Below are positions 3,183-59,190 of a stretch of 64,000 nucleotides of DNA, piece after piece; positions within the stretch are counted from its first letter, which is position 1, and the number at the start of each line of letters is the position of its first letter. Below the pieces are notes generated by a model. That model did no database searches and was not told where the DNA came from. It saw only the letters and a program-made list of their open reading frames with translations. This DNA is from Blastococcus mobilis (GTDB taxonomy: Bacteria; Actinomycetota; Actinomycetes; Mycobacteriales; Geodermatophilaceae): assembly GCF_900188025.1 (NCBI RefSeq), contig NZ_FZNO01000007.1, forward strand, positions 124,001-188,000. Direction: 5' to 3'. The translations under genes and the position numbers were made by a program.

Positions 3183-3292
3183 GAGAGGACCCGGTCCTCC
3201 TCACCGTAGAAGAACCCCTTCCCCCTCACGCCTCGCACGCTCGGCGCGAGCCTCTGGACGGGGCCGCGAGCCTCGGGACCGGGCCGCTGTGG
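3183..3292. repeat. Dispersed stop-codon-associated palindromic repeat, copy A
   Basis: Begins 1 nt after the hydrolase TGA with GAGAGGACCCGGTCCTCCTC. It contains the core CTCGCACGCTCGGCGCGAG (3232-3250) and the outer GGACGGGGCC arm. It lies between convergent genes, so it could also terminate both transcripts. Its best matches are copies B and G. Confidence 0.7.
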
Positions 3293-3297
3293 CCCGA

Positions 3298-4767
3298 TCA
3301 GCGCAGGGCGGGGCGCAGCGGCGGCACGTGCCGGACACCGAAGACCTCGCGCAGCGCCACCCGCGCGGCGTTGTCCCCGCAGGCACCGTGCACCGCGGGC
3401 CCGGGCGGGGTGGCAGCCGAGGCCAGGTAGACGCCCTTGGCCGGTGTCTTGTAGGTGTTCCACCGAGGCACCGGCCGGGCGAGCATCTGAGCGAGGGTGG
3501 CTTGCCCGTTGGAGATGTCCCCACCCAGGTAGCTGGGGTTCCACCGCTCCATGGCGACGGCGTCCTTCGTGTACCGCTCCACGATCGTGTCGCGGAACCC
3601 GGGTGCGAACCGCTCGATCTGGTTCTCGATCGCCTCGGTCATGTCCACGTCCGCACCGTGCGGCACGTGCACGTAGGCCCAGAGGATGTGGCCGCCCTCG
3701 GGCGCTCGGGTGGGGTCGGGCACCGTGGGCTGCACCGCGAGCACGTAGGGGCGGTCGGTCAGCTGCCCCTGGTTGGGCGCCCGCTCGCCGGCGATCGTCT
3801 CGTCCAGGTTGCCGGCGACGTGGATCGTCCCGGCCCGCCGGACGTCGGGGTTGGTCCACGGCACCGGCTCGGACAGGATCCAGTCGATCTTGAAGACGCC
3901 GGCACCGTGGCGGTACCGCGACACCCAGCGTCGGTACCCCTCGTGGACCCGGTCACCGGCCATGGAGACGAAGGCCTCGGGCGTCGTGTTGAGCAACACC
4001 GCGGGGACGCCGTCGAACTCGCGCAGGTCGGTGACGTGGTGGCCGGTCACCACCTCGCCACCCTGCTCCTCCAGCGCGGTGACCATCGCGTCGGCCAGCT
4101 TCTGCGACCCGCCCTCGATCAGCGGCCAGCCGACGTGGTGGCTCAGCATCGTGAGCAGCATCCCCAGCGCGGAGGTCAGCGGCTGACTGAGGTCGAGCAT
4201 GCCGTGCGCCGCCGCCCCGCCCACCAGGGCGCGCGCCTCCTCGGTGTCGAAGTACCGGTGCGCCAGCCAGCGCACGTTGGGCAGCCCGTTGAGCCCGAAA
4301 TGAACGATCTGCGGGACGCTCCGGGTAGGAGCCCGGCGCAGCCGGCTGGTGAGGAAGAAGTCGACGACGTCGGTGCCGTGCTCGACCAGCGGCCCGAACA
4401 GCCGACGGTAGGCCGCCGCATCCTTCCCCAGCCCCGCCGCCGTCTCCTCCAGTGACCGTCGCGAGACCGACGCCCGCCCGCCGTCGAGCGGATGGGCGAA
4501 GTTGATCTCCGGGTGCACGAGCCGGACACCGCGGCTCTCCAGGTCGAACTCCCGGAAGAAGGGCGCCGCCTCGGCCATCGGCTGCACGATCGAGCAGACG
4601 TCGTGGAAGTAGCCGGGGCGCATGAGCTGCTCGGTGCGCATCCCGCCCCCGGGGCGCTCGGCCACCTCGACGACCTGGACCCGGAGGCCCGCGGCGGACA
4701 GGCGCAGGGCCGCGGCCAGTCCGTTGGGCCCCGCTCCGACGACGACGGCGTCCGGCTTCCCGTTCAC
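3298..4767 (-). CDS. Phytoene-desaturase-like FAD/NAD(P)-dependent oxidoreductase
   Basis: 489 residues from GTG 4767. The N-terminal Rossmann FAD motif is VVVGAGPNGLAAAL, followed by the ERPGGGMRTEQL region typical of the COG1233 phytoene dehydrogenase/retinol saturase family. The C-terminal FAD-contacting segment contains YLASAATPPGPAVHGACG. No carotenoid synthase genes are adjacent, so the substrate is unknown. It may act on other polyunsaturated or hydrophobic substrates. The start was set at the GTG directly before the Rossmann strand; upstream codons in this frame are antisense to meaB. Confidence 0.85.
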   Translation of the reverse strand: MNGKPDAVVVGAGPNGLAAALRLSAAGLRVQVVEVAERPGGGMRTEQLMRPGYFHDVCSIVQPMAEAAPFFREFDLESRGVRLVHPEINFAHPLDGGRASVSRRSLEETAAGLGKDAAAYRRLFGPLVEHGTDVVDFFLTSRLRRAPTRSVPQIVHFGLNGLPNVRWLAHRYFDTEEARALVGGAAAHGMLDLSQPLTSALGMLLTMLSHHVGWPLIEGGSQKLADAMVTALEEQGGEVVTGHHVTDLREFDGVPAVLLNTTPEAFVSMAGDRVHEGYRRWVSRYRHGAGVFKIDWILSEPVPWTNPDVRRAGTIHVAGNLDETIAGERAPNQGQLTDRPYVLAVQPTVPDPTRAPEGGHILWAYVHVPHGADVDMTEAIENQIERFAPGFRDTIVERYTKDAVAMERWNPSYLGGDISNGQATLAQMLARPVPRWNTYKTPAKGVYLASAATPPGPAVHGACGDNAARVALREVFGVRHVPPLRPALR

Positions 4768-4804
4768 CCGACCATCCTGGCCGCCCGGGGGCTGGGCTGC
4801 GCGT

Positions 4805-5836
4805 TCAGAGCTGGTCGAGCAGTTCGTCCGCGGCCCGGTAGGGGTCGGACTCGCCCGCCACCACCCGGTCGGCGAGCGCACCCAGCGCGGCCGAGCCGCG
4901 GACGTCACCCATCCGCTCGCGCAGCGAGGCCAGCGCGATGGCCTCGATCTCGCGGGCCGCACGCTCGCTGCGCCGCCGGTGCCCCTCGCCGGAGGACTCC
5001 AGCCACTGACGGTGCGCCTCGATCTTCGCCACGACCTCGTCGATGCCGTTGTCGGTCTCGCGGGAGGCCACGGTCTTGCAGATCGGCGGCCGCCAGTGGC
5101 CCCCCTCGCTGTGCCGGCCGCCCAGGGACAGCATGTAGCGGAGGTCGCGCACGGTCTGGTCGGCGCCGTCCCGGTCGGCCTTGTTGACGACGAACACGTC
5201 GGCGACCTCGAGGATCCCCGCCTTGGCCGCCTGGATGCCGTCACCCATCCCCGGCGCCACCAGGACGAGCGTGGTGTCGGCCAGGGAGGCGATCTCGAGC
5301 TCCGACTGCCCGACGCCCACCGTCTCGATCAGCACGACGTCGCAGCCGGCGGCATCGAGCACCCGCAGCGCCTGCGGCGTCGACCAGGCGAGGCCGCCGA
5401 GGTGCCCGCGGGAGGCCATCGACCGGATGTAGACACCGGGGTCCCCCGCGTGGTCCTGCATCCGCACCCGGTCGCCCAGCAGCGCCCCGCCGGAGAAGGG
5501 GGACGACGGGTCGACGGCGAGCACCCCCACGCGCTTGCCCGCCGCACGGAGCGCGCGGACCAGCGCCGTCGTCGACGTCGACTTGCCGACACCCGGGGAC
5601 CCGGTCAGGCCGATCACCTGCGCCCGCCCCGTGTGGGGGGCCAGTGCCGCGGCGACCTCGCGCAGGACGGGGCTGGCGTCCTCGACCAGCGAGATCAACC
5701 GCGCCACCGAGCGCGCGTCACCCTCGCGGGCGCGCTCGACCAGGGTCGGGACGTCGTCCGCCCGCCGACCGCGCCGCCCGGTCGGGGCGGGACCGGCCGG
5801 CGTCTGGACGGCGGTCCCGGCGGCGAGGTCGGTCAA
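4805..5836 (-). CDS. meaB: Methylmalonyl-CoA mutase-associated GTPase MeaB
   Basis: G3E-family P-loop GTPase that gates cofactor loading and protects B12-dependent acyl-CoA mutases. Motifs seen are the Walker [37 protein letters not shown] and NKAD. 343 residues if translation starts at TTG 5836, whose TTGA overlaps the thiolase stop by 4 bp; this tight coupling is why I prefer it over the ATG at 5887, which lies inside the thiolase gene. Likely clients in this window are the IcmA-like mutase and Ecm. Confidence 0.93.
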
Positions 5837-7035: not shown

Positions 7036-7228
7036 GACGGGCCTCCAGTGCCGGGCCGCCGACGCTGGCGACCGTGTCAACAGGGCAGACCGCGCAACCG
7101 CGCGGAATCGGACTGCCCATCAGGATAGGACGACACGTGCAACGAGCGACCAGGCACGAAATGCCGGCGAGCGTGACCCCGGCCACATCGATGTGTCGTC
7201 TCAGACGTCTTGGCGGCAGGATGCGCGC

Positions 7229-7687: not shown

Positions 7688-7693
7688 CCGCAC

Positions 7694-7722
7694 TCGACCC
7701 GCGGGTTACCGATCGGTAACAT
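7694..7722 (+). promoter_or_regulatory. ccr promoter with embedded 16-bp palindromic operator
   Basis: The -35-like TCGACC (7694-7699), a 17-nt spacer and the -10-like TAACAT (7717-7722) form a plausible sigma-70 promoter. The perfect palindrome GTTACCGATCGGTAAC (7705-7720) fills the spacer and overlaps the -10, the expected position for a repressor (TetR-type spacing, inferred). Related sites precede the dehydrogenase at 14252-14267 and ecm at 21252-21267. Confidence 0.65.
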
Positions 7723-7783
7723 CGCGCCACCCGCACCGCCTCCGAGCCGGCCGACGACGGCCACCCACGACCCGGGAGAACGC

Positions 7784-9115
7784 GTGAACGAGATCAGGGA
7801 CGCCATCCTCAGCGATCAGCTGGACGCCGTGGGAGGGCTGGCCGTGCCGGAGTCCTACCGCGCCGTCCTGGTCCGCAAGGACGAGCAGGACATGTTCGCG
7901 GGCATGCCGACCAAGGAGAAGGACCCGCGCAAGTCGCTCCACGTCGAGGAGGTCGCCACCCCGGAGCTGGGCCCCGGCGAGGCGATCGTCGCGGTGATGG
8001 CGTCGTCGGTGAACTACAACACCGTCTGGACGTCGATCTTCGAGCCGGTGTCGACCTTCGGCTTCCTGGAGCGCTACGGCCGCGTGTCGGAGCTCACCAA
8101 GCGCCACGACCTGCCCTACCACGTGGTCGGCTCCGACCTGGCCGGCGTCGTCCTGCGGGTCGGGCCGGGGGTGAACAAGTGGAAGCCCGGCGACGAGGTG
8201 GTCGCGCACTGCCTGTCGGTCGAGCTGGAGGACCCGGCCGGCCACGACGACACGATGATGGACCCGCAGCAGCGGATCTGGGGCTTCGAGACCAACTTCG
8301 GCGGCCTCGCGGAGCTGGCCCTGGTCAAGAGCAACCAGCTGATGCCCAAGCCGGGCCATCTGTCCTGGGAGGAGGCCGCCGCACCGGGGCTGGTCAACTC
8401 CACCGCCTACCGGCAGCTGGTCAGCCACAACGGCGCCAACATGAAGCAGGGCGACACGGTCCTGATCTGGGGCGCGTCGGGCGGGCTGGGCTCCTACGCC
8501 ACCCAGATGGCGCTGGGCGGCGGCGCGATCCCGATCTGCGTCGTGAGCAGCCCGGAGAAGGCCGAGATCGTCCGCAGGATGGGCGCCGAACTCATCATCG
8601 ACCGCTCCGCCGAGGGCTACGCGTTCTGGAAGGACGAGCACACCCAGGACCCCAAGGAGTGGCAGCGCCTGGGCAAGAAGATCCGGGAGCTGACCGGCGG
8701 GGAGGACGTCGACATCGTCTTCGAGCACCCCGGGCGGGAGACCTTCGGCGCCAGCGTCTACGTCGCCAAGAAGGGCGGCACGATCGTCACCTGCGCCTCC
8801 ACCAGCGGGTACATGCACTCCTACGACAACCGCTACCTCTGGATGAACCTCAAGCGGATCATCGGCTCGCACTTCGCCAACTACAAGGAGGCGTGGGAGG
8901 CCAACCGGCTCATCGACAAGGGCCTCATCCACCCGACGCTGTCGAAGGTCTACCCGATGGACGAGGTCGGCCAGGCCGCCCTGGACGTCCACCGCAATGC
9001 CCACCAGGGCAAGGTCGGCGTCCTGACCCTCGCCCCCGAGGAGGGTCTCGGCGTGCGGAACCCGGAGAAGCGCGAGCAGCACATCGAGGCCATCAACCGT
9101 TTCCGCGGCATCTGA
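7784..9115 (+). CDS. ccr: Crotonyl-CoA carboxylase/reductase
   Basis: 443-residue MDR-superfamily enzyme that reductively carboxylates crotonyl-CoA to (2S)-ethylmalonyl-CoA with NADPH and CO2, the key step of the ethylmalonyl-CoA pathway. The four CO2-pocket residues known from Kitasatospora Ccr (N81, F170, E171, H365) are present at N79, F168, E169 and H363. The cofactor-binding region is LIWGASGGLGSYATQ. The GTG at 7784 follows GGGAGA. Its promoter carries a palindromic operator shared with ecm and the 3-hydroxybutyryl-CoA dehydrogenase. Confidence 0.97.
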   Translation: MNEIRDAILSDQLDAVGGLAVPESYRAVLVRKDEQDMFAGMPTKEKDPRKSLHVEEVATPELGPGEAIVAVMASSVNYNTVWTSIFEPVSTFGFLERYGRVSELTKRHDLPYHVVGSDLAGVVLRVGPGVNKWKPGDEVVAHCLSVELEDPAGHDDTMMDPQQRIWGFETNFGGLAELALVKSNQLMPKPGHLSWEEAAAPGLVNSTAYRQLVSHNGANMKQGDTVLIWGASGGLGSYATQMALGGGAIPICVVSSPEKAEIVRRMGAELIIDRSAEGYAFWKDEHTQDPKEWQRLGKKIRELTGGEDVDIVFEHPGRETFGASVYVAKKGGTIVTCASTSGYMHSYDNRYLWMNLKRIIGSHFANYKEAWEANRLIDKGLIHPTLSKVYPMDEVGQAALDVHRNAHQGKVGVLTLAPEEGLGVRNPEKREQHIEAINRFRGI

Positions 9116-9182
9116 GAGAGGACCCTGCCCTCCTCACCCTTCGCACGCTCAGGGTGAGGCTCCGGACGGGGCCCCTACCCCC
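9116..9182. repeat. Dispersed stop-codon-associated palindromic repeat, copy B
   Basis: Starts right after the ccr TGA with GAGAGGACCCTGCCCTCCTC, then the core TTCGCACGCTCAGGGTGAGG and GGACGGGGCC. Nearly the same layout as copy A, with the stop codon at the same offset. Confidence 0.7.
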
Positions 9183-9341
9183 ACCGAGAAGGAGTCCGGC
9201 GGGGCCCCGCAGGAGGGCCGCCGACAGTCCGCTCGGCCGTGCCGTGGGACGGGGCCCCGTCCCACGGCACAGCCGTCCCACCGGCCCCGGTTGTCCCCCC
9301 GACACGCTGACTAGCCACTGACCTTCTGCGAGGATGACGAC

Positions 9342-10499
9342 ATGAGCGATCCCCGCCGCGATTTGCTGCCGACTCACGAGGCCCAGCACTCGTTCGACGT
9401 GGTGCTGCGGGGCTACGACCGCAGTCAGGTGGCCGACACCATCGAGCGGCTCGAGGCCGACTTCCGGATCGCCCTCGCCGATCGTGATGCGGCCGTCAGC
9501 CGCTCCGCCGACCTCGCCGGCCAGCTCTCCGCGCTGCACGGTGAGATCGAGTCGCTCCGGCGCAAGGCCGCCTCGGCGTCGGCCCCCACCTTCGAGAACA
9601 TCAGCGAGCGCATCCAGCACATGCTGCAGCTCGCCGAGGAGGAAGCAGGGGAGATCCGCCGCGCGGCCGAGCTGGACGCGCAGGCGGTCCGCGAGCAGAC
9701 CGCCGCCGAGGAGCGCGCGCTGCTCGAGCGGCACGCCGCCGGGCAGGCCGAGGTCGAGCGGATGCTCGCGGAGGCCCGGCAGAACGCCGAGCAGATCGCC
9801 CAGAAGGCGCAGCAGCGCGCCGACGAGCTCGTCGCCAAGGCACAGGAGCGGGTGGCCCGGCTCGATGCCGAGTCCCAGGCGCGCCGGGCCAAGGTCGAGG
9901 AGGACTTCGACATCGCCCAGCGCGCTCGGCGAGCCGAGGCGGCCGCGGCGGAGGAAGAGCGCGAACGCGTCTCCACGCAGGCCGCCCGCCAGCGGATCGC
10001 CGCAGCCGAGCAGCACGCGGCGCAGCTCGTCGCCGAGGCGGAGGCGAAGGCCGAGGCCATCCGCGACGTGCGCGACGAGCTCACCGGCCGGCTACTGCAG
10101 GCCCGCCAGCTGCTCAGCAGCCTTCCGGAGCTCAGCGACCGCCCGCAGCAGACCGCTCCACAGGAGACCGCTCCCCAGCCGGCACCGGCTCCGACCCGGA
10201 GCCAGGCATCCCCGACCGGCTCGGGCTCGGGCACCAGCGTCGCCGCGTCGCAGGCTGCCGCCGTACGAGAGACCGAGCGACGCCCTCAGCCGGCGGCGCA
10301 GGCCACGCCCACGCATGCCACGCCGTCGTCCGCCCCCAGGGGCGAGGGCGAGGCGGCCGCGGCGCGGCAGCCCACCCGCCCGGAGCCGGCCGCGACGCGT
10401 CAGCTCCCGATGCCGCCGCGGCCGGGTGCGTCCCCGGCTCCGGTCCAGGGGCCGCCGACCCAGGCCATCGACCAGCCGGTCGGCCAGGGGCGTCACTGA
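9342..10499 (+). CDS. DivIVA-domain coiled-coil protein (Wag31/FilP-like)
   Basis: 385 residues. An N-terminal DivIVA-type membrane-targeting and dimerisation segment (about 14-48, SFDVVLRGYDRSQVADTIERL) is followed by a long Ala/Glu/Gln/Arg coiled coil to about residue 265, then a low-complexity Pro/Ala/Gln tail. It is probably a polar or cytoskeletal scaffold related to Streptomyces FilP/Scy. Sequence alone does not say which. A GAGGAT hexamer 6 nt before the ATG may be a leaderless-type -10. The downstream sortase begins about 80 bp on, with a repeat copy between. Confidence 0.85.
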   Translation: MSDPRRDLLPTHEAQHSFDVVLRGYDRSQVADTIERLEADFRIALADRDAAVSRSADLAGQLSALHGEIESLRRKAASASAPTFENISERIQHMLQLAEEEAGEIRRAAELDAQAVREQTAAEERALLERHAAGQAEVERMLAEARQNAEQIAQKAQQRADELVAKAQERVARLDAESQARRAKVEEDFDIAQRARRAEAAAAEEERERVSTQAARQRIAAAEQHAAQLVAEAEAKAEAIRDVRDELTGRLLQARQLLSSLPELSDRPQQTAPQETAPQPAPAPTRSQASPTGSGSGTSVAASQAAAVRETERRPQPAAQATPTHATPSSAPRGEGEAAAARQPTRPEPAATRQLPMPPRPGASPAPVQGPPTQAIDQPVGQGRH

Positions 10500-10560
10500 T
10501 AGAGGGCCCCCCTACCCCCCGCCACTCGCGAGCTCGTGGCGGGACCCTGCAGAGGGGCCG
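10500..10560. repeat. Dispersed palindromic repeat, copy C
   Basis: Directly follows the DivIVA-like TGA: AGAGGGCCCCCCTACCCC, then ACTCGCGAGCTCGTGGCGGG and CCCTGCAGAGGGGCC. It occupies the leader, and possibly the first codons, of the sortase gene. Confidence 0.65.
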
Positions 10561-10579
10561 CCGCGGGCTGTTCGTCGTC

Positions 10580-11932: not shown

Positions 11933-11936
11933 TGCA

Positions 11937-12078
11937 ACGGCCCCGCTGCAGGGGCCCACGCGAGCATGCAAGGGCGGGCGGCAGGACGGCCCCCCCTGCA
12001 GGGGCCCGCCGCCGGCCCCGTCCCGGGCCCCGCCCTGAGCGTGCGAAGGGTGGGCAGGACGGGGTCCTTCTCCGGTGG
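11937..12078. repeat. Dispersed palindromic repeat, copy D (double unit)
   Basis: Two cores, GAGCATGCAAGGGC and GAGCGTGCGAAGGGTGGG, separated by CCCCCCTGCAGGGGCC, ending GGGGGGTCCTTA against the stop of the minus-strand gene at 12094. It fills the space between convergent genes and can fold into long GC hairpins. Confidence 0.7.
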
Positions 12079-12093
12079 GGGGCAGGGGGGTCC

Positions 12094-12399
12094 TTACCGG
12101 CGCCGGTCCCGCGCCCGCCAGCAGGTCGCGTGCCAGTGCCGGCGCCGGTCTGCGGCGGACTCGGTGTCCCAGGGGTCGAGGTCGGAGTCACGGGCGTAGG
12201 CGGGCCAGGTGACGACGTGCGGGGTACCCGGCCGGATCTCCTGGTCACAGCCCGGGCAGCGGTAGGTCTTGCCCGTCGCGGCCCCGGTGAGCGGGCGGAC
12301 CACCCAGTCACCGTCGGCGGCCTCCTCGACGGTCTCGACGCGACGGGCCGGGTCCGGCCCCGAGGGGCGGGACCCGGCCCGTGGTCGCCGACGGGGCAC
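12094..12399 (-). CDS. Small putative zinc-ribbon protein, actinobacterial hypothetical
   Basis: 101 residues from GTG 12399, which begins 2 bp after the stop of the upstream dehydrogenase, so the two are co-transcribed and probably coupled. The Arg/Pro-rich N-terminus precedes YRCPGCDQEIRPGTPHVV and HWHATCW, a Cys-x2-Cys ... His ... His-x3-Cys arrangement able to bind zinc. I recognise this as a conserved actinobacterial hypothetical family that databases sometimes call ATP/GTP-binding. No function can be assigned. Confidence 0.75.
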   Translation of the reverse strand: MPRRRPRAGSRPSGPDPARRVETVEEAADGDWVVRPLTGAATGKTYRCPGCDQEIRPGTPHVVTWPAYARDSDLDPWDTESAADRRRHWHATCWRARDRRR

Positions 12400-17477: not shown

Positions 17478-17605
17478 ACTCACCGCGGCCCCGTAGGGGT
17501 CCGGCCCGTCCGGGTCCCGCCCTGAGCTCGCGAAGGCCTGTGGCCCCGTCCCGAGGCTCACCGCGAGCGTGCGAGCGGTGAGGTGGGCGGAGTCCTTCCA
17601 GGGGT
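17478..17605. repeat. Dispersed palindromic repeat, copy E (double unit)
   Basis: Cores GAGCTCGCGAAGGC and GAGCGTGCGAGCGGTGAGG with GGGGTCCTT at the end, 6 bases from the stop of the minus-strand crotonase gene (17612). Confidence 0.65.
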
Positions 17606-17611
17606 CCTTCG

Positions 17612-21267: not shown

Positions 21268-21324
21268 AGCCCCGCGTCGGGGACCCGCAGCCGACTATGA
21301 CCGGTGGCACACTCGGACGACGGA

Positions 21325-21378
21325 AGCACCCCGTCCCCCTCCCCCTCGCATGCTCGGGGCGAGCCACTGGACGGGGCC
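21325..21378. repeat. Dispersed palindromic repeat, copy F
   Basis: ACCCCGTCCCCCTCCCCCTC, then CTCGCATGCTCGGGGCGAG and GGACGGGGCC. The one copy not beside a stop codon: it lies between the divergent ecm and DUF2007-like genes. Confidence 0.6.
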
Positions 21379-21403
21379 GGTGGGCGGTCGATGGGAGGAC
21401 GGC

Positions 21404-23759: not shown

Positions 23760-23846
23760 CCTACGAGTCGAGGACCCCGTCCTCCTCACCCGTCGCACGC
23801 TCGGGGTGAGCGGCGGGACGGGGCCTGAGGGGACACGGGTCCTTTC
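23760..23846. repeat. Dispersed palindromic repeat, copy G
   Basis: GAGGACCCCGTCCTCCTCAC, then GTCGCACGCTCGGGGTGAG and GGGACGGGGCC, ending GGGTCCTTTCTCAG at the stop of the convergent DUF2550 gene. Lies between two convergent stops. Confidence 0.7.
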
Positions 23847-24687: not shown

Positions 24688-24819
24688 GACACTCCTCGGG
24701 ATCCACCGGCGGGGCGGTGCGGTACGGGGGTTCGCCGGTCCAGGGACGCGGCGACGGGTGCTGCTCACTCTAGCGGCGCGTCGTCGACGTGCCTGCCCAG
24801 CCCCCGGCCCCGTTACCGG

Positions 24820-24874
24820 GCCGGCCCTCTCCTGACGTGCCCCGAGCCTGTGAGGGGTGGGAGGCGGGCCTCCT
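24820..24874. repeat. Dispersed palindromic repeat, copy H
   Basis: CCTCTCCTGACGTGCCCCGAGCCTGTGAGGGGTGGGAGGCGGGCCTCCTT-type element (described by parts: core GAGCCTGTGAGGGGTGGG) running into the stop of the 65-residue gene at 24875. More diverged than other copies. Confidence 0.55.
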
Positions 24875-25072
24875 TCAGACGCAGCGGCGGTACAGGAGAG
24901 TCCATCGGCCGACCCGGACCCACGGACGCCGGACCGTCGAGGCGGGCGCCCACTCGTCGACGTCGAAACGCTCCCCCTCGGCCGGCTCCCACGGCGCGTA
25001 CGGCGGCCAGCTCCAGCCGGCCTCGCCGCTGCGGGATGTCGCGTCGTTCGCGTCCACGTCGATCCTCGTCAC
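24875..25072 (-). CDS. Small Trp-rich hypothetical protein
   Basis: 65 residues from GTG 25072. Nearly every third codon base is G or C, as in neighbouring genes, which argues that it is translated. Trp-rich segments include [12 protein letters not shown] and [16 protein letters not shown]. No family recognised. It lies inside the unusual atpD-atpC gap, and its GTGA start overlaps the stop of an even smaller ORF. Confidence 0.55.
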
Positions 25073-25191
25073 GGTGCCCGCTGGTCGGGCTCATCTGTCG
25101 GATGGTCGGCGTCGGGCGCGCTGACCAGGAGGGACAGTAGCGCCGATCCACCTACACGGGTGACCGTGATGTCCCCCGATCGTGGGCACAC
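25069..25191 (-). CDS. Possible 40-residue ORF overlapping the Trp-rich gene
   Basis: Starts GTG 25191 and reads MCPRSGDITVTRVGG... to a TGA shared in GTGA with the next gene. Codon bias is moderate and no ribosome binding site is visible. The overlap is the main evidence. It may instead be leader sequence. Confidence 0.28.
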   Translation of the reverse strand: MCPRSGDITVTRVGGSALLSLLVSAPDADHPTDEPDQRAP

Positions 25192-25227
25192 CGGCGGCCG
25201 CGCGGAGGGACCGGAGCGGAACGGCGA

Positions 25228-25259
25228 ACGGCCGGGCCCTCCGAGGAGGGCCCGGCCGT
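25228..25259. terminator. Strong hairpin between atpD and atpC
   Basis: ACGGCCGGGCCCTCC, GA loop, then GGAGGGCCCGGCCGT: a perfect 15-bp stem. It would end or attenuate the atp operon transcript after atpD, an unexpected place because atpC lies further downstream. Confidence 0.7.
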
Positions 25260-25291
25260 CGCCGGACTGGAACGGCCACCCTTCAGTTGAA

Positions 25292-25360
25292 GGTCCGCCC
25301 TGCCCTCCACCGCTCGCAAGCTCGCGGCGGGACCCTGCAGGGCGGCCGTGGGGGGTCCTT
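25292..25360. repeat. Dispersed palindromic repeat, copy I
   Basis: CCGCCCTGCCCTCCACC, core GCTCGCAAGCTCGCGGCGGG, CCCTGCAGGGCGGCC and GGGGGGTCCTT, ending within 3 bases of the atpD stop codon. Confidence 0.7.
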
Positions 25361-26860
<1,500 letters not shown>

Positions 26861-38880: not shown

Positions 38881-38979
38881 CGCCCGCCCCCGTCGGCCCC
38901 CCTGCAGGGGCCCGCCACGAGCGTGCGAGTGGTGGGGGGCAGGGGGGTCGTCTTACGAGCCGCGGGGGGCAGGGGGTCC
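38881..38979. repeat. Dispersed palindromic repeat, copy J
   Basis: CCCCCCTGCAGGGGCCCGCC, core GAGCGTGCGAGTGGTGGGG, GGGGGTCGTCTTA and a second GGGGGTCCTTA running into the rho stop. Confidence 0.7.
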
Positions 38980-41166
38980 TTACTCGTTGCCGGGCCCCAG
39001 CGTCGTCTTCTGGATCTGCATCAGGAACTCGACGTTGTTGCGCGTCTTCTTCAGCTTGTCCAGGAGGAGCTCCAGCGCCTGCTGGGGCTCCAGCGCGGCG
39101 AGCACCCGGCGGAGCTTGATGACGATGGCCAGCTCGTCGGGGTTCATCAAGATCTCTTCCTTGCGGGTACCCGACGCGTTCACGTCGACCGCCGGGAAGA
39201 CCCGCTTGTCCGCCAGGCGGCGGTCGAGCTTGATCTCGGCGTTACCGGTGCCCTTGAACTCCTCGAAGATGACCGTGTCCATCGTGGAGCCGGTCTCGAC
39301 CAGCGCCGAGGCGATGATCGTGAGCGAGCCGCCGTTCTCGATGTTGCGGGCCGCGCCGAGGAAGCGCTTGGGCGGGTAGAGCGCCGTGGAGTCGACACCA
39401 CCGGAGAGGATCCGCCCGCTGGCGGGGGCCGCCAGGTTGTAGGCGCGGCCCAGGCGGGTGATCGAGTCCAGCAGGACGACCACGTCGTGGCCCATCTCGA
39501 CCAGGCGCTTGGCCCGCTCGATGGAGAGCTCCGCGACCGTGGTGTGGTCCGACGGCGGCCGGTCGAAGGTCGAGGCGATGACCTCGCCCTTCACCGAGCG
39601 CTGCATGTCGGTGACCTCCTCGGGCCGCTCGTCGACGAGGACGACCATGAGGTGGCACTCGGGGTTGTTCGTGGTGATCGCGTTGGCGAGCGACTGCAGC
39701 ACCATCGTCTTGCCGGCCTTGGGCGGCGACACGATCAGCGCGCGCTGCCCCTTGCCGATCGGCATGACGAGGTCGATGACCCGGGTGGTCAGGACGTGCG
39801 CCTCGGTCTCCAGCCGCAGCCGCTCCTGCGGGTAGAGCGGCGTCAGCTTGGTGAACTCCGGCCGGCGCTTGGCCTGCTCGGGGTCGAGCCCGTTGACGGT
39901 GTCGAGCCGGACCAGCGCGTTGTACTTGTCCTTGCGCTCGCCGTCGCGGGGCTGCCGGACAGCACCGGTGATGGCGTCACCGCGACGCAGACCGTATCGG
40001 CGCACCTGCGACAGCGAGACGTAGACGTCGTTCGGCCCGGTCAGGTAACCCGACGTCCGGACGAAGGCGTAGTTGTCGAGCACGTCGAGGATGCCGGCGA
40101 CGGGCAGCAGGACGTCGTCCTCGCTGACGGTCGGCTCGCCCTGGTCGAAGCGCTCGCGTCCGCCGCCGCGCTTGTTGCGGTCACGGTAGCGACGCCCGCG
40201 ACGGCCGCGGCCACCCTCGAAGTCGTCGTCGTCGTCATCGCTCTGGTTGTTCCGGCCGTCGTTGCGGCTGTCGTTGCGGCTGTCGTTCCGGTTCTCCGGC
40301 CGCCCAGTGCGATCGTTGCGGTCGCCGCGGTCGGGGCCCCGGTTGCCGTCACGGTTGTTCCCGCCGTCACGGGCACCGGCGCCCTCGCGGGCACCGCCGT
40401 CACGGACGCCGCCGTCACGGTTGTTGCCACCCTCACGGGAGCTGCCGTCACGGTCAGCGCGGTTGCGGCCGCGGTCGCGGTTGCGCTGGGGCCGGTCGCC
40501 GTCGGTGCGCTGCTCACCCTCGTCGGGCGCGGTGTCGGTCGAGGGCGGCGCGGTGTCGGTGACGGACGACGCGGTGTCGGTCGAGGGCGACGCGGTGTCG
40601 GTCGAGGGCGACGCAGTGTCGGTGACGGACGACGCGGTGTCCGTCACGGGCGCTGTCTCGGTCGCACGCTCACCGGCTGCGGCCGAGTCGGCCGCCGGCG
40701 AACCGGCCGGCCGACTGGCGCCACGGCGCGAGCGCACGGGGCGTGACGGGCGCTCGGTGGCGCCGGTCAGCGGACCGCCGTTCGCGCCGCCGCTGATGGG
40801 AGCCTCGAGCGGAGCGGAGGAGGCGGCGATACCGCGGGCCTCCGGGGCGCCGCCGGCAGCAGGAGAGCCGCCAGGAGCAGGGGTGCCTTCAGCAGCCGGG
40901 GCGTCGTTGGTCGGGGCGCCCGCCGCAGCGGACCCGCCGCCGACCTGGCGAGCGGAGATGGCGGCGACGAGGTCGCCCTTGCGCATCCGACCGGTGCCGG
41001 AGATGCCCAGCTCGCCGGCGAGCCGCTGCAGCTCGGGCAGCAGCATCCCGGCCAGTCCGGTGCCGCGGCGACGGGGGCTGCCCGTCGTCCCAGAAGCGGC
41101 AGTCGCCTCGGTCGGGCCGGCAGCATCCTGCGTACCGGTCACGACGAGGTCGGTGGTTTCACTCAC
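38980..41166 (-). CDS. rho: Transcription termination factor Rho with long disordered insertion
   Basis: 728 residues against 419 in E. coli. An N-terminal Rho_N-like helical segment ([28 protein letters not shown]) is followed by about 250 residues of low complexity: Ala/Pro-rich, six 7-residue VTDTASS-like repeats, then Arg/Asn/Gly/Asp-rich RGG-like sequence. The S1-like RNA-binding fold ([19 protein letters not shown]) and RecA-type motor follow, with Walker [10 protein letters not shown] and [15 protein letters not shown]. Terminates transcripts; the insertion likely binds extra RNA. GTG start. Its leader begins at a clear promoter 185 nt upstream. Confidence 0.97.
40531..40656 (-). repeat. 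Six tandem 21-bp units inside rho
   Basis: Units of GGTGTCGGTCGAGGGCGACGC type (read on the plus strand) at 40531, 40552, 40573, 40594, 40615 and 40636. Each encodes seven residues of the (V/S)TDTAS(S/P) kind. The units at 40573 and 40594 are identical. The sequence alternates two forms (TCGAGGGC and TGACGGAC). Confidence 0.9.
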
Positions 41167-41406: not shown

Positions 41407-42501
41407 TTACCGAGACGATACCTGAGCGTTCCCATGGAACACACGGGCACCGTCGGGGTCGACCTGCAGGGGAAGGACCGCCCAGTCCGGCGGGCTGAGG
41501 TCGTCGATGGCCCGCAGGTGGTCGGCATCGGTCGGCTCGCTCCCGTCGCGGGACGGCCGGGCGAGGACGAGGACGCTCGGCCCGGCGCCCGAGACCACCG
41601 CGGCCAGCCCTCGCTCGCGCAGCCGGTCGACCAGTGCCAGCGACTCGGGCATCGCCGCGGTCCGTTGCCGCTGGTGCAGCCGGTCCTCCGTCGCCGCCAG
41701 CAGCAGCTCCGGCTCGCGGGTGAGCGCGTGGACGAGGAGTGCGGCCCGTCCTGCCGCGTGCGCCGCGTCGGCGTGCGGAACGGCGTCGGGCAGCAGCCCG
41801 CGGGCCACGTGCGTGGACAAGGTGCCGGACGGGACGAGGACGACCGGGGAGACGGAGGGATCGACGTCCAGCCGGGCCGCGCGTGCACCCCCTGGTTCCA
41901 TCCACGACAGGGTGGCTCCCCCCAGCAGGCAGGGCGCGACGTTGTCCGGGTGCCCCTCGAGCTCGGTGGCCAGCCGCAGGACGGCGTCGAGGTCGATCCG
42001 GTGGGCGTCCGGGCACAGCGACCATGCGCCGACGACGCCGGCGACGACAGCGGCCGCGGACGAGCCCATCCCCCGCCCCTGCGGGATGCCGTTCTCCGCG
42101 ACCAACCGCAGACCCGGCGGCGTCCAGTCCAGTTCCGCGCACGCCGCCCGGAAGGCACGGACGACGAGGTGGGACTCGCCCGCCGGCAGCTCGCCGGCAC
42201 CGACACCGGAGACCACCACCTCCAGTCCGGAGCCGGTGACGGTGAAGTCGAGGACGTCGTGGCAGGTCAGCGCGAGGCCGGCGCAGTCGAAGGCCGGGCC
42301 GAGGTTAGCGCTCGTCGCCGGGACGCGCACCCGTACCGTGCCGACCGCGTCCGGGGCCGGCTGCCTGCAGGGTTCCGCCGCGAGCCTGCGAGTGGTGGTG
42401 GGCAGGCGGTCCTTCTCCGAGCGTCGGGTGGCCTCGTCCGGGGCGCCGCCGCGAACTTGCGAGCGGTGGGGAGGACGGGGTCCTTCCAGTGGTCCTGTCA
42501 T
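41407..42501 (-). CDS. thrB: Homoserine kinase, with repeat-encoded N-terminal extension
   Basis: GHMP kinase phosphorylating homoserine for threonine synthesis. The ATP loop is [17 protein letters not shown] and the N-terminal family block is [24 protein letters not shown] 42501 overlaps the thrC stop as ATGA and yields 364 residues, but its first ~45 codons run through repeat copy K, which has kept the frame open. GTG 42330 would give 307 residues starting at the conserved block. Which start is used cannot be told from sequence. Last gene of the hom-thrC-thrB unit. Confidence 0.9.
42361..42492. repeat. Dispersed palindromic repeat, copy K (double unit), inserted between thrC and thrB
   Basis: Cores GAGCCTGCGAGTGGTGGTGGG and, 60 bp on, GAACTTGCGAGCGGTGGGG, with GGTCCTTCT and GGGGTCCTTCC ends. 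In the thrC direction it begins 14 nt after the stop with AAGGACCCCG, the same placement as the other copies. Confidence 0.7.
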
Positions 42502-43577
42502 AGACCGAGCTGCGCCGCGGCCGCCCCGGCGTCGACCGGGATCGTCACGGGGGCGGGGGCTCCCGAGATCGCCCATTCCGGGTCCTTGAGGCCGTTCCCC
42601 GTGACGGTGCAGACCACGCGCTGACCGGGTTCCAGCTCACCGGCGGCGGCGACCTGCAGGAGGCCTGCCACCGAGGCCGCGGACGCCGGCTCGACGAAGA
42701 CGGCCTCGCTGCGGGCCAGCAGCCGGTAGGCGGACAGGATCGCCCGGTCGGTGACGGCGTCGATGCGCCCGCCGGACTCGTCGCGGGCAGCCAGGGCCTT
42801 GGTCCAGGATGCCGGGTTTCCGATGCGGATGGCGGTCGCGATCGTGCTGGGGTTCTCCACGACCTGGCCGGTGACGATCGGCGCTGCCCCGGCGGCCTGG
42901 AACCCCCACATGCGTGGCGTGCGGGCGGCGGTGCCGTCGGCGGCGTACTCGCGGTAGCCCTGCCAGTAGGCGGTGATGTTCCCGGCGTTGCCGACGGGCA
43001 GGCAGTGGATGTCCGGGGCGTCCCCGAGGACGTCGACGATCTCGAACGACGCCGTCTTCTGACCCTCGATGCGGTACTGGTTGACGCTGTTGACCAGGCT
43101 CACCGGGTAGTCGATCGCGAGCTTGCTGGCCAGCGTCAGGCAGTCGTCGAAGTTGCCCTCGACCTGCAGGAGCTTCGCGCCGTGCACCAGCGCCTGCGCG
43201 AGCTTCCCCATGGCGATCTTCCCCTGCGGGACCAGCACGGCGCAGGTGATCCCGGCACGGGCGGCGTAGGCCGCGGCGCTCGCACTGGTGTTGCCCGTCG
43301 AGGCGCAGATGACCGCCTTCGAGCCCTCCTCGACGGCCTTGGTGATCGCCATCGTCATGCCGCGGTCCTTGAAGGAACCGGTGGGGTTGGCGCCCTCGAC
43401 CTTGAGGAAGACCTCGCACCCGGTGCGACGGGAGAGCTCCGGGGCGGGCAGCAGCGGGGTCGCGCCCTCGTGCAGGGTCACCACCGGGGTGTCGTCGCTG
43501 ACCGGCAACCGCGACCGATAGGCCTCGATCAGCCCGGGCCATCCCGGGGAGATCACTCCCCGCACGCCTACCGTCAT
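42498..43577 (-). CDS. thrC: Threonine synthase
   Basis: 359 residues, PLP fold-type II. PLP-Lys is K70 in [11 protein letters not shown]; the phosphate-binding loop is [13 protein letters not shown]. Converts O-phosphohomoserine to threonine. ATG overlaps the hom stop (ATGA), and its own stop overlaps the thrB ATG. Confidence 0.96.
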
Positions 43578-49998: not shown

Positions 49999-50006
49999 CC
50001 CGCCTC

Positions 50007-50894: not shown

Positions 50895-50907
50895 CGCCAC
50901 CGACGCC

Positions 50908-51678: not shown

Positions 51679-51791
51679 GTCGGGAGCTCCTGTCGTCGAC
51701 GTCGTCCGCACGACCGTAACGAAGACGTGGGGTAGCTCACCTCCCGGGCGGGTAGAGCGGTCGTCCGAACCCGGCGGGGAGGCAGACGACC

Positions 51792-53441: not shown

Positions 53442-53442
53442 C

Positions 53443-53985: not shown

Positions 53986-53989
53986 CCGG

Positions 53990-55627: not shown

Positions 55628-55671
55628 CGGCACAGCCTCCCAAGCCGCCCGTCACCGCGAGCGACCGGTCC

Positions 55672-56751
55672 TCAGGCGTCCTCGTCCTCCGGCCGCTCCA
55701 GGACGTCGTCGGCGAGCTCGTCGAGCATGCCCTCGAGCGGGTTGTCCTCCTCACCCGGCGGACGGCGCCTCACCAGCCACGGCTGCAGGTGGTCGTAGCC
55801 GCGGACCGAGACCCGGCGCAACGGCCGTACGCGGTAGGCGCGGAGCCCGCGCAGCCGCTGGGCCAGTTCCCGGTCCACGAGCACCGTGCCGGGGCGGCCG
55901 AGCGAGGTCAGCCGGCTGGCCAGGTTCACCACGGGCGAGTAGACGTCGCCCAGACGGGTCAGCACGGCGCCGTACGCGGCCCCGACCCTCAGCGGCGGAC
56001 GCTCCTCGCTGTCCCACACCTCCGGCAGCAGCAGCCCGATCTCGACGGCGTCGACCGGGGACGCGGCGGTGAAGAGCACGCCGTCCCCGACGGTCTTGAC
56101 CACCCGGCCGCGGTGCTGCGCGATGACCTCGGTCGCGGTGCTCTCGAAGTCCTCGACCATGGCCCCCAGTTCGCGACCGCCCATGCCCCGGCTGCGTGTG
56201 GTGTACCCGACCAGATCGGCGAAGCCGACCGCGAGCCGGCGCCGGTCCCCCTGGCCGGCCGACGAAGCGAGCAGCCGGTCGGCGTTGGCTGCGAGGTGCC
56301 GCCGCCAGACGTAGCTCTGGATGTCCCGCATCTTGGGCAGCAGCTCACGGGCGACGGCCACGGCCTCCTCGGGCGAGGCGGGCTGACATCCGCCGCCGGG
56401 CTCGGGCCGGCTCAGGGCATCGGCGAGCATGTCGGTCTGCCAGTCGGCCAGTCGTGACAGCGCCTGGCCCATCGCCCGGGCGATGGAGGCCTCGGTGTCG
56501 GCGTCGACGAAGCCGGAGTCGATCAGCTCCGACAGCACCCCGAGCGCCCGGACGTCGGCGTCGGTGAACGCGGGGTCGTCGTCGGCGGCGTCGGGGAAGC
56601 CGAGCGCCCGCCAGAGCCGCTGGGTGCGGTCGGGCGCCATTCCGGCGAGCTCGGCGACCTGGAGCCGCGTGTACCGCCGCGGGCCGTCGAGCAGCAACCG
56701 CTCGATCGCCTCACGGGCGTCCGGGCCGGAGCGCTCGTCCGGGGCGTCCAT
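55672..56751 (-). CDS. Class III adenylate cyclase, Rv1264-like
   Basis: 359 residues. The N-terminal helical regulatory domain (about 10-160, RLLLDGPRRYTRLQVAELAGM) resembles the pH-sensing autoinhibitory domain of M. tuberculosis Rv1264. The C-terminal catalytic domain has metal Asp D179 (FADLVGYT) and D223 (VGDGVLF), adenine-selecting K219 and D269, and transition-state N276 and R280 (VNLASRL). All are present, so it should be an active homodimeric cyclase. Acidic C-terminal tail. Confidence 0.92.
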   Translation of the reverse strand: MDAPDERSGPDAREAIERLLLDGPRRYTRLQVAELAGMAPDRTQRLWRALGFPDAADDDPAFTDADVRALGVLSELIDSGFVDADTEASIARAMGQALSRLADWQTDMLADALSRPEPGGGCQPASPEEAVAVARELLPKMRDIQSYVWRRHLAANADRLLASSAGQGDRRRLAVGFADLVGYTTRSRGMGGRELGAMVEDFESTATEVIAQHRGRVVKTVGDGVLFTAASPVDAVEIGLLLPEVWDSEERPPLRVGAAYGAVLTRLGDVYSPVVNLASRLTSLGRPGTVLVDRELAQRLRGLRAYRVRPLRRVSVRGYDHLQPWLVRRRPPGEEDNPLEGMLDELADDVLERPEDEDA

Positions 56752-56766
56752 CTGCGGTCCGCGACC

Positions 56767-57237
56767 TCAGTCGGTGGTGTGCACGACGAGCACGTCGCAT
56801 GCGGACCGCCGGGTGGCATCGGCCGGGACCGAGCCGAGCAGCCGACCCTTGATGCCGGCCAGACCACGGTTGCCGACGACCAGCAGGTCGGCGTTCTCCC
56901 GACGCACGACCTCCAGCAGCGCCTCGACCGGCGAGCCCTGTACGGCGACGGTCTTCACGCTTCCTGCACCCGCCGCGCCGGCGCGCTCGGCAGCGGTGCG
57001 CACCGTGTCCTCCGCCGGGTGCGAGCCGACCACCTGGTAGGCCTCGTCCCGGAGGACGTCCTGGGCGCGGGCCAGTTCGCGGTCGTCGGCCTCGGTGGGC
57101 AGGTAGGCGCAGGCGATGACGAGCGTCGCGTCACACGCGCCGGCCAGCACACCCGCCCGCGCGACCGCGCGCAGGGAGGACTCCGAACCGTCTGTTCCCA
57201 CGACGACCGTCCGGTAGGCGTTCGAGGTGTCGGTCAC
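56767..57237 (-). CDS. Universal stress protein (UspA family)
   Basis: 156 residues, one Usp domain. ATP-binding signature GNRGLAGIKGRLLGSVPADATRRSACDVLVV (G-2x-G-9x-G-(S/T)); N-terminal VVVGTDGSESSLRAV. GTG 57237 follows TAGAGT by 7 nt. Divergent from the ABC transporter. Confidence 0.93.
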   Translation of the reverse strand: MTDTSNAYRTVVVGTDGSESSLRAVARAGVLAGACDATLVIACAYLPTEADDRELARAQDVLRDEAYQVVGSHPAEDTVRTAAERAGAAGAGSVKTVAVQGSPVEALLEVVRRENADLLVVGNRGLAGIKGRLLGSVPADATRRSACDVLVVHTTD

Positions 57238-57244
57238 GGCGCGG

Positions 57245-57273
57245 ACTCTATGTGACCGTGTGCCGGCGGTCAC
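57245..57273 (-). promoter_or_regulatory. Leaderless promoter for the universal stress protein
   Basis: Minus strand GTGACC (57273-57268), 17-nt spacer, TAGAGT (57250-57245), 7 nt, GTG. The -35 forms an inverted repeat with GTGACC on the plus strand at 57252-57257. Confidence 0.55.
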
Positions 57274-57396
57274 GCCCGAGATGATCTCCGGCGCCGGGGG
57301 TGCGGTGCGGCGCGCCGCGGGCTCTCGGGGCTCACGGGAGCGCTCCTCGGTGCGCTTGGATGGGTTCGGACCCGCGCCCCACGACGAGGAGACACC

Positions 57397-58362
57397 ATTT
57401 CCATCGCAAGCGCCGCGACGGTCGACCCCGTCCGGGTCGATGTGCACGGACTCAGCAAGTCCTTCGGTCGGGTGCAGGCCGTCTCCGATCTGAGCTTCAC
57501 CGTGGAGCCGGGGTCGGTGACCGGCTTCCTGGGGCCGAACGGCGCCGGCAAGACCACCACGCTGCGGATGCTTCTCGGCCTCATGCAGCCCGACTCCGGG
57601 ACGGCGACCTTCGACGGCGCCCCGTACACGACCCTGACCGCCCCGCTCCGCACCGTGGGGGCCGTGCTGGAGACCGCGTTCCACCCGGCCCGGTCCGGTC
57701 GCAACCACCTCCGCGTGTACTGCCGCGCCGCCGGCTTCCCGCTGTCCCGCGCCGACGAGGTCCTGGCGCAGGTCGGGCTCGCCGACGCCGGCAACCGCCG
57801 GGCCGGGGGGTATTCGCTCGGCATGCGGCAACGGCTGGCGCTGGCCACCGCGCTGCTGGGCGATCCCGCCGTCCTGGTGCTGGACGAGCCGGCGAACGGG
57901 CTGGACCCCGAAGGCATCCAGTGGCTGCGGGGCTTCCTGCGCCACCTCGCCCACGACCTGGGCAGGACGGTCCTGGTCTCCAGCCATCTGCTGAGCGAGG
58001 TGGAGCAGACCGTCGACCGCGTGGTCATCGTCGGCGCGGGCCGCCTGGTCCGCGAGGGCTCCATGGACCAGTTGCGCTCGGGGGCCGACGGCGCCGGCAC
58101 GGTGCTGGTCCGCAGCCCGGAGGCCGCCCGGTTCGCCGACCTGCTGCGCGCCGACGGCACGGGGGTGACCTCCCAGGACGGCGTCCTCACCGTCACCGGG
58201 ACCACACCGGCCGAGGTGGGCCGGCGGGCGTTCGCCGCCGGCATCGAGCTCCATGAGCTGCGCTCCCGCACGAGCGGACTCGAGGCGATCTACTTCCAGC
58301 TGACCGGCGGTTCCGAGCAGTTCGCGGCCCCCTCACCCGTCGCCCAGGAGGCCACCCGATGA
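57397..58362 (+). CDS. ABC transporter ATP-binding protein (ABC-2 type)
   Basis: Walker A GFLGPNGAGKTTTL, signature YSLGMRQRLALA, Walker B VLVLDEPANGLDPEG, H-loop SSHLLSE. DrrA/CcmA-type exporter ATPase. The first beta strand VRVDVHGLSKSFG begins upstream of GTG 57442. The only start with a ribosome-binding site (GAGGAG, 5 nt) is ATT 57397, giving 321 residues. ATT starts are rare, so GTG 57442 (306 residues) is the conventional alternative. Coupled to the permease by ATGA. Confidence 0.9.
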   Translation: MSIASAATVDPVRVDVHGLSKSFGRVQAVSDLSFTVEPGSVTGFLGPNGAGKTTTLRMLLGLMQPDSGTATFDGAPYTTLTAPLRTVGAVLETAFHPARSGRNHLRVYCRAAGFPLSRADEVLAQVGLADAGNRRAGGYSLGMRQRLALATALLGDPAVLVLDEPANGLDPEGIQWLRGFLRHLAHDLGRTVLVSSHLLSEVEQTVDRVVIVGAGRLVREGSMDQLRSGADGAGTVLVRSPEAARFADLLRADGTGVTSQDGVLTVTGTTPAEVGRRAFAAGIELHELRSRTSGLEAIYFQLTGGSEQFAAPSPVAQEATR

Positions 58363-59114
58363 TCCGCCTGGTGCGCTCGGAGTGGACCAAGCTGTTCACG
58401 ACCCGGGTCTGGCTCGGGCTGCTGCTCGGTGGCTGCGTCATGGTGGGCGGCTTCGCCGCCCTGCTGACCGGCTTCGCCGGCAACGCAGAGAGCGGGCTGC
58501 CACCGGTCGGGACGCCGGAGTTCGAGCAAGTGGCGCTGGCCCAGGCCACGAATGCGACGGTGCTGTTCCTGATCCTCGGCATCATCGGGATGACCCAGGA
58601 GTACCGGCACCGCACCGCGACACCCACCTTCCTCACGGTGCCGCGCCGCTGGAAGGTGGTGGTCGCCAAGCTGATCGCGTACTCGGTGGCCGCCGTGCCG
58701 TTCGCGCTGGTGATGCTGGCCGTGAACGTCCTGGTCGTGACGGTCTACGCCGGCGCACGCGGCGCGGCCCCGTCCCTCACCGGGGACAACCTGGAGGTCC
58801 TCGCGACCTCGGGGCTCGCTCTGGTCATCTATGCGCTCATCGGGGTCGGGATCGGCGCGCTGCTGCGCAACCAGGTCGGGGCGATCGTCGGTGGCCTCGT
58901 GTACCTGTTCGTCGTCGAGCCGGTGATCCGCTCGATCCCGGCCACGTCCGGGGCCTACAAGTGGATGCCGGGAGGCGGGCTCGAGGCGATGACGGCGACG
59001 TTCCAGGGGCCCGATCTCCTGGGCGCCTGGGAAGGCGGCCTCCTGTTGGTCGGCTACGGCCTGCTGGCCGCGCTCCTCGGCACCCTGCTGGCGGTCCGGC
59101 GCGACGTCGTCTGA
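58359..59114 (+). CDS. ABC-2 type permease
   Basis: 251 residues with six predicted membrane helices. N-terminal MIRLVRSEWTKLFTTRVW, the amphipathic start typical of ABC-2 permeases; internal EYRHRTATPTFLTVPRRW loop between TM2 and TM3 is also typical. Partners the preceding ATPase; substrate unknown. Followed directly by repeat copy L. Confidence 0.9.
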   Translation: MIRLVRSEWTKLFTTRVWLGLLLGGCVMVGGFAALLTGFAGNAESGLPPVGTPEFEQVALAQATNATVLFLILGIIGMTQEYRHRTATPTFLTVPRRWKVVVAKLIAYSVAAVPFALVMLAVNVLVVTVYAGARGAAPSLTGDNLEVLATSGLALVIYALIGVGIGALLRNQVGAIVGGLVYLFVVEPVIRSIPATSGAYKWMPGGGLEAMTATFQGPDLLGAWEGGLLLVGYGLLAALLGTLLAVRRDVV

Positions 59115-59115
59115 G

Positions 59116-59190
59116 CAAGGACCCCGCCTCCCGCCCCCTCCCGGGGCCCGGCCCGAGCGTGCGAGGGTCGGGGAGGAGGGGGTCCTTACG
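59116..59190. repeat. Dispersed palindromic repeat, copy L (best-preserved full element)
   Basis: AAGGACCCCGCCTCC at one end and GGAGGAGGGGGTCCTT at the other form a long terminal inverted repeat; CCCCTCCCGGGGCCC and core GAGCGTGCGAGGGTCGGGG lie between. Begins 4 nt after the permease stop. Confidence 0.8.

Follow-up and report, generated by a model that had tools for sequence, protein, structure and literature searches.

What is the short palindrome that recurs directly behind stop codons in the actinobacterium Blastococcus mobilis, and how did it get there? A first-pass annotation of a 64,000-nt stretch of this genome (the window) had proposed a dispersed, possibly mobile palindromic element at 12 loci with a common core. 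The element is present at all 12 loci, and it resolves into a discrete hairpin unit of 56 bp. Comparison of sequences within and between genomes indicates that this unit is probably a non-autonomous mobile palindrome moved in trans. The proposal of dispersed mobility is borne out by three kinds of observation: complete units lie within the hairpins of other units, orthologous sites in related species are empty, and copy number is patchy within one bacterial family (from 0 to at least 150).

Anatomy, nesting and distribution of the unit

The unit has sharp ends (AAGGACCCC...GGGGCC) and reads, in transcript sense, AAGGACCCC-GTCC-(interior loop)-CTCACCC-TCGCAnGCTC-GGGTGAG-(interior loop)-GGACGGGG-CC. 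In the fold, an asymmetric interior loop separates the outer from the inner stem, and a conserved 10-nt loop caps the latter. Among 38 ungapped copies, the information per column falls to background right past position 56, and the 3' flank beyond it is G/C-rich, of background composition and free of any U-tract. The 5' flank carries only a weak signal in its last three bases (T, A and G favored) and a C at -5. Statistics for the genome of B. mobilis (the own genome, 5.09 Mb) come from 864 kb in 40 stretches, of which the second 20 and some of the first 20 were selected for matches, with genes called by our own gene caller. Two main stem types (GTCC/GGAC and CTGC/GCAG) occur in this genome and further types in other species. 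The conserved part is the loop, which reads TCGCAnGCTC in 89 and TCGCnnGCTC in 112 of 138 own-genome copies.

Covariation supports the predicted pairing. When the 14 units of the window are aligned, 85.9% of cells are paired and two-sided changes are seen in 14 of 18 pairs; the covariation score of 0.358 is reached by 0 of 500 shuffles and is at most 0.093 with partners slid. Among 56 distinct own-genome copies, in an alignment fitted to the model, 16 of 18 pairs have such changes (none of 500 shuffles). The minimum free energies of the window units range from -18.2 to -36.4 kcal/mol. The only Rfam match in the window is one tRNA, and the unit matches no Rfam family at gathering score.

Many copies are interrupted by another copy. 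We scored the flanks of 137 own-genome copies for halves of another unit, taking the 99.5% level of shuffled flanks as the threshold. Outer halves in the same orientation occur in 25 left flanks and 31 right flanks and on both sides of 17 copies, although some of the one-sided cases are tandem neighbors; inverted outer halves exceed the threshold in 5 and 7 flanks. Nested copies mostly share the orientation of the resident. The outer left half mostly stops after unit position 9 (AAGGACCCC), 21 (...CACCG) or 26 (...CTCG), and an NRG-type trinucleotide and then a complete unit follow. For the loop class, the outer right half takes up again near positions 34-38 (entry after 21) or 40-43 (entry after 26); the short NRG-type leader and the complete unit stand in place of about 12-16 nt of the resident, among them the loop. 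In the stem class (entry after 9), the right half resumes at about 12 to 22 and the missing stretch varies. At one locus (L214), four 5' ends follow in succession with matching 3' arms, which we parse as a four-level nest.

The same junctions recur in the Geodermatophilaceae, the family of B. mobilis, of which we surveyed 112 genomes with at most 49 candidates scored per genome. The loop-entry junction CCACCG-NRG-AAGGACC occurs at 152 sites in 34 of the 112 genomes, not all of them clean nests, versus 5 sites for a reversed control; the one site in G020, a genome without units, is probably a chance match. At the 20 of 29 junction sites examined in genome G098, outer and inner stem types differ from site to site. 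Copying of the nests whole, as one compound unit, is not favored, since the outer stems differ between these nests.

The junction behind ftsZ (identified by Pfam) gives the clearest view of an insertion. Sixty such junctions were taken among the FtsZ matches listed. One runs into the end of its contig; of the other 59, all searched, 39 have a model match, 37 in the direction of ftsZ and two against it, and 20 have none. G087 and G088 carry a plain unit, AAGGACCCCCGTGCCCCCCACC-CCTCGCTCCGCTC(G/A)G-GGCGGGCCCCTGCACGGGGGCC. A Geodermatophilus genome related to these two (G085) has the same two arms, but its 15-nt tip has given way to GGAG, a 56-bp unit with the alternative stem type, and AC. This comparison indicates that the tip was replaced, not duplicated. 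The stop codon here is native, and species without a unit keep the identical ending. That the unit might supply its own CAG-TRR (a terminal Gln and a stop; R, purine) is ruled out at ftsZ, as unit-free species also end FtsZ in Gln-stop.

We aligned 34 ftsZ copies, namely 33 of the 39 and the own-genome copy, omitting three nested copies, two inverted copies and, for no stated reason, L187. In this alignment 91.8% of cells pair, the covariation score is 0.438 (0.140 in shuffles and at most 0.107 with partners slid), and 12 of 17 pairs change on both sides versus 8.9 in shuffles. These statistics suggest that pairing and loop are kept while the stem sequence turns over. Many of the ftsZ units (e.g., L183, L191, L194 and L195) are trailed by a sequence close to GTTCCAGCACGTCACC, and some reversed copies are preceded by its complement, which suggests a longer form of the element. 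The ftsZ junction of G009 (L148) has another long hairpin, GGGTCCTCCCTCAC.../...GTGAGGGAGGACCC, without the conserved loop, where relatives carry the unit.

Syntenic regions of ten congeners contain empty sites. The clearest is the site at 23760 of the window, where nine of the ten have 51-81 bp between the anchors versus 150 in the window; the tenth (G012) carries its own element. At the sites at 9116, 17478, 38881 and 42361, the unit is missing from most readable relatives, and some carry a unit that differs in type or orientation. A diverged element is present at the 21325 site in G006 and G011 and in none of the other congeners. The short junction of G013 lacks the copy at 3185..3285, and relatives without the unit at 9118 keep the stop codon of the upstream gene (7784-9115) in its position. 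The syntenic regions of G015 contain no model match, and neither do those of G013, though the genome of G013 has 22.

Copy number varies widely. A search of the genome with a covariance model of the unit, of the kind suggested when the element was first noticed, confirms a real family. The own genome holds at least 150 copies (all 150 scored candidates match), and 12 copies in 200 kb of one contig (C57) extrapolate to about 300 per genome. Head-to-tail arrays also occur there, with about six units at L016:16403-16759 and four to five at L058:7049-7372. In the congener G009, 110 of 150 scored candidates match. Carriers make up 101 of the 112 family genomes and 9 of 12 genera. Some are nearly empty, with one copy in G076, two each in G067 and G018, and three in G113, and nine small, fragmented genomes of three genera have no match. 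Outside the family, none of 24 genomes of the order matches, nor does any of 295 genomes of the class, for each of which the 18 best candidates were scored.

Copies in the window

With up to three mismatches allowed, the window contains 10 occurrences of the core, where shuffles give an expectation of 0.11; nine of them are at the reported loci and one is elsewhere, at 60729. A covariance model (CM) named R1 was built from the 14 units at the 12 loci. With filters off, R1 scores these units at 43.7-76.7 bits, a match that follows by construction, and the next match in the window reaches 21.9 bits. The copies are as follows.

3185..3285, plus strand: outer copy with arms 3185-3205 and 3266-3285, recognized from sequence (halves 24.9 and 19.8 bits, both exceeding the 99.5% level of shuffled flanks)
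3210..3265, plus strand: 56-bp inner unit in the loop of the outer copy (CM 71.2 bits)
9118..9173, plus strand: 56-bp unit, 2 nt past the stop of the zinc-binding dehydrogenase gene 7784-9115 (Pfam; CM 70.9 bits)
10503..10558, plus strand: 56-bp unit, 3 nt past the stop of open reading frame (ORF) 9342-10499 (CM 66.3 bits)
11939..11994, minus strand: diverged 56-bp unit (CM 49.8 bits)
11990..12095, minus strand: outer copy with approximate ends, its loop interrupted by 12014-12069 (left half 21.4 bits, right half 18.6 bits)
12014..12069, minus strand: 56-bp inner unit (CM 76.7 bits)
17542..17597, minus strand: 56-bp unit after the AAGGACCCC+TGG (17598-17609) of an older copy (CM 73.1 bits; left arm 15.6 bits)
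21324..21379, plus strand: 56-bp unit with divergent genes on either side and no adjoining stop (CM 71.2 bits)
23770..23825, plus strand: 56-bp unit beside an inverted outer half that ends at about 23844 (CM 70.8 bits)
24821..24876, minus strand: diverged unit that overlaps the stop codon of a short called ORF in the atpD-atpC gap (CM 43.7 bits)
25291..25346, plus strand: 56-bp unit next to an inverted outer arm, which itself borders directly on the atpD stop at 25361 (Pfam; CM 71.2 bits; inverted right arm 15.5 bits)
38896..38951, minus strand: 56-bp unit preceded by another copy's 5' arm at about 38956-38981 (CM 71.8 bits; left arm 27.0 bits)
42359..42414, minus strand: 56-bp unit, tandem partner of the next (CM 70.2 bits)
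42430..42485, minus strand: 56-bp unit, 12 nt past the stop of the PALP-domain gene 42498-43556 (Pfam; CM 67.9 bits)
59134..59187, minus strand: unit beside an inverted outer half that starts at 59117 (CM 66.8 bits; inverted arms 24.3 and 12.7 bits)

Three loci (11937-12078, 17478-17605 and 42361-42492) had been described as double copies, and such doubling is in part nesting. The pair at 42361-42492 is a tandem, whereas 3183-3292 and 11990-12095 each consist of one unit inside the loop of another. An older copy may also have left a remnant at about 17500-17540, where the right part was found solely by a search of the joined flanks. The count of 11 loci out of 12 with AAGGACC beside a stop codon holds, with 21325 as the exception. 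At 25292 and 59116, though, the end on the stop side belongs to an inverted outer remnant, and the intact core points in the opposite direction.

The outer copy at 3185..3285 begins 2 nt past the stop of an NlpC/P60 gene (2649-3182; Pfam). The 23770 unit with its inverted half lies 18 nt past the stop of a cobalamin adenosyltransferase gene, the AAGG of the inverted half at 59117 begins 2 nt past the stop of gene 58359-59114, and the 5' arm at about 38956-38981 overlaps the stop of rho (38980-41046; Rho domains). In the ATP synthase cluster, the gap between atpD and atpC spans about 670 bp (24688-25360) and contains two units and the short called ORF. A separate, near-perfect 22-bp inverted repeat at 9234-9275, about 60 bp downstream of the 9118 unit, is possibly the native terminator of the dehydrogenase gene.

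Placement at stop codons and possible function

The proposed preference for positions near stop codons stands and becomes sharper in the own genome. Of 138 copies, 58 begin between -2 and +5 nt from a same-strand stop, and 51 of these 58 do so at 0, 2 or 3 nt; 36 copies are nested and 46 lie elsewhere. Among those 46, a TGA, TAG or TAA ends 0-3 nt before the unit in 18, versus 5.5% of random intergenic positions (p = 1.3e-11). This TRR preference away from stops suggests that part of the stop rule is a preference at the DNA level, and loss of insertions inside genes would add to it. Nearly all copies (131 of 138) lie outside called genes.

A fixed orientation, also proposed at first, gives way to a bias of about 2:1: 51 copies run with both flanking genes and 26 against both, while convergent genes flank 41, divergent genes flank 13, and seven fall inside called genes. 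In this partly match-selected sample, density is highest at convergent junctions (41 copies for 122 junctions), compared with tandem (77 for 573) and divergent ones (13 for 130). One unit (L059:14068-14125) directly follows the stop of dnaA (DnaA by Pfam).

The copies resemble intrinsic terminators in part. They are stable hairpins past stop codons, with terminator-like energies and, for 58 of 138, a fitting position, and they lack the 3' U-tract. The copies that separate ftsZ from the ORF after it, and atpD from atpC, argue against a strong terminator, and a terminating ribosome would be expected to cover the first stem. Our putative reading is that the copies are 3' hairpins which the host tolerates or from which it draws a mild benefit. 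Copies directly behind the stops of core genes (ftsZ, atpD, rho and dnaA) may shape the 3' ends of their transcripts.

Proposed mobilization, rival explanations and known systems

How would such a hairpin move? An enzyme supplied in trans would act on it as single-stranded DNA (or as a cruciform) and would recognize the stem and the conserved loop. Exposed loops of resident hairpins would then serve as targets, and copies would stack like Russian dolls. After insertion, the fold could be kept by selection, by repeated insertion or by repair between the arms. A fuller version, which we hold only tentatively, is that the single-strand palindrome targets the apical loops of resident copies of itself, as well as TRR (stop) trinucleotides, and replaces about a dozen bases through an undescribed enzyme other than Y1/RAYT, with the conserved loop as both recognition element and preferred target.

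Several observations weigh against this picture. No enzyme was found among the families searched (PF01797, RVT_1 and Ku), so mobility is deduced from comparison only. Two near-complete genomes of carrier genera, G015 and G061, have no match. The congeners are about 70-92% identical over aligned pieces, and outside nests the empty sites lack single-base resolution. The NRG leader of nested copies differs from the TRR at stops, and no single target rule accounts for both. Among the 18 TRR sites, one is a gene end missed by the caller and about four more look nested to us; the 36 nested copies set apart in the stop-codon count are a hand-made list, and two of them are also at a stop. By simple patterns, a canonical loop follows within 56 nt at 11 of the 20 G098 sites, and a resumed outer arm is recognizable at 8 of those 11; the remaining sites resemble deeper nests or do not parse cleanly. 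At ftsZ, the number of pair types is not raised (25 versus 24.5 in shuffles, 256 of 500), stem divergence between species is strong, and repeated insertion and evolution in place are indistinguishable.

The first-pass annotation had suggested a REP-like family, after the repetitive extragenic palindromes (REPs) and REPINs moved by REP-associated tyrosine transposases (RAYTs), which are Y1 HUH enzymes. The unit is likewise a short imperfect palindrome with many extragenic copies, some in tandem arrays and some preceded by a TRG-like trinucleotide. The look-up of a RAYT gene that the annotation had called for came back empty: the Y1 family PF01797 is found in none of the 112 family genomes, whereas a positive control detected it in 5 of 14 named genomes, including Escherichia coli. 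REPs are defined by loops of 2-5 nt and an invariant GTAG/GTGG in the available portion of PMC6006769; the unit has a 10-nt loop, no invariant GTAG or CGTC tag, and nests with loop replacement. Mobilization by a RAYT is thus unlikely, and the REP-like label does not hold. Reverse transcriptase was also rejected as the driver (RVT_1 occurs in 49 of 112 genomes, is absent from the copy-rich G002, G006, G008 and G009, and does not track copy number). No viral contig matches one exact pattern of the unit, the only pattern searched.

Alternatively, hairpin tips might be cut and a hairpin fragment joined during double-strand-break repair by Ku/LigD, with no dedicated enzyme. The approximately 12-16 nt missing at the resident tip and the presence of Ku in 109 of 112 genomes fit such a capture, but the inserted units have exact ends, which would not be expected of random capture. 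Ku is equally present in the element-free G015 and G061, which removes it as a discriminating factor, and it is common in actinomycetes without the element; we consider this origin quite unlikely. In the single-copy genome G076, Ku matches in two adjoining pieces (C2:492166-492709), which may reflect a broken gene or a sequencing error.

Functional 3' hairpins, whether terminators or mRNA-stability elements, could recur after stops by selection without any mobility. Their position right past stops, the convergent-junction preference in the partly match-selected sample and the covarying stems are what such elements would show. As the sole explanation, selection leaves the whole units in the loops of other units unaccounted for, and the empty orthologous sites, the use of both orientations, the occupied divergent junctions and the TRR preference away from stops speak against it as well, making it very improbable. 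A miniature inverted-repeat transposable element with terminal inverted repeats, moved by a DDE transposase with target duplication, is the least probable origin, for although the ends are palindromic (AAGGACCCC.../...GGGGCC) and small trans-mobilized elements are common in bacteria, 133 flank pairs show no excess of direct repeats (lengths 2-6, 8 and 9) and the resident tip at ftsZ appears replaced, not duplicated.

Old and abundant as a class, small palindromic repeats are poorly understood. A hairpin that probably spreads through an actinobacterial family without a detected RAYT uncouples this kind of repeat from the enzyme that usually accompanies it and predicts a different one. At the nested sites the insertion rule can be read nearly to the base, and a single family offers near-complete genomes with no, few or scores of copies, a natural material for an enzyme hunt. 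We found no published description of this hairpin family in a literature search that lacked most subscription journals. Among very small mobile repeats are the small dispersed repeats (SDR) of cyanobacteria. These are named in the accessible part of PMC3116915. BOX-PCR fingerprints have been used on Geodermatophilaceae, and the consulted part of that paper describes no genomic repeat of theirs (PMC2625358).

The closest likeness, as far as the available portions of the papers go, is to REP, BIME and REPIN-RAYT systems, which are also short extragenic palindromes of high copy number that occur in clusters and are thought to be mobilized in trans (PMC3733652, PMC3116915, PMC6006769, PMC2817692). 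This literature rests mostly on REP/RAYT, largely in Proteobacteria, and the word 'Actinobacteria' does not occur in the main text of PMC3733652 as available. REPs are 20-40 bp long, whereas the unit described here has 56 bp and two stems. The GTAG and CGTC super-families (PMC3733652, PMC3116915, PMC6006769, in the parts consulted) carry their tag, GTAG/GTGG or CGTC, 0-2 nt 5' of the hairpin, where our unit has only a weak T-R-R/NRG preference. The unit further differs in its conserved 10-nt loop, in nesting in its own loop and in the lack of a Y1 gene in all 112 genomes. The insertion sequences IS1397 and ISPpu9 use REP palindromes as targets, according to the accessible text of PMC1525189 and PMC8450116; there an insertion sequence enters a REP, whereas here a non-coding palindrome sits inside copies of itself. 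Yeast mitochondrial GC clusters are likewise tiny, GC-rich mobile hairpins whose units merge and shuffle by an unsettled mechanism, as described in the available part of PMC4478555. Those clusters are organellar, have a putative target-site duplication and vary most in their loops, whereas in the B. mobilis unit the loop is the conserved part.

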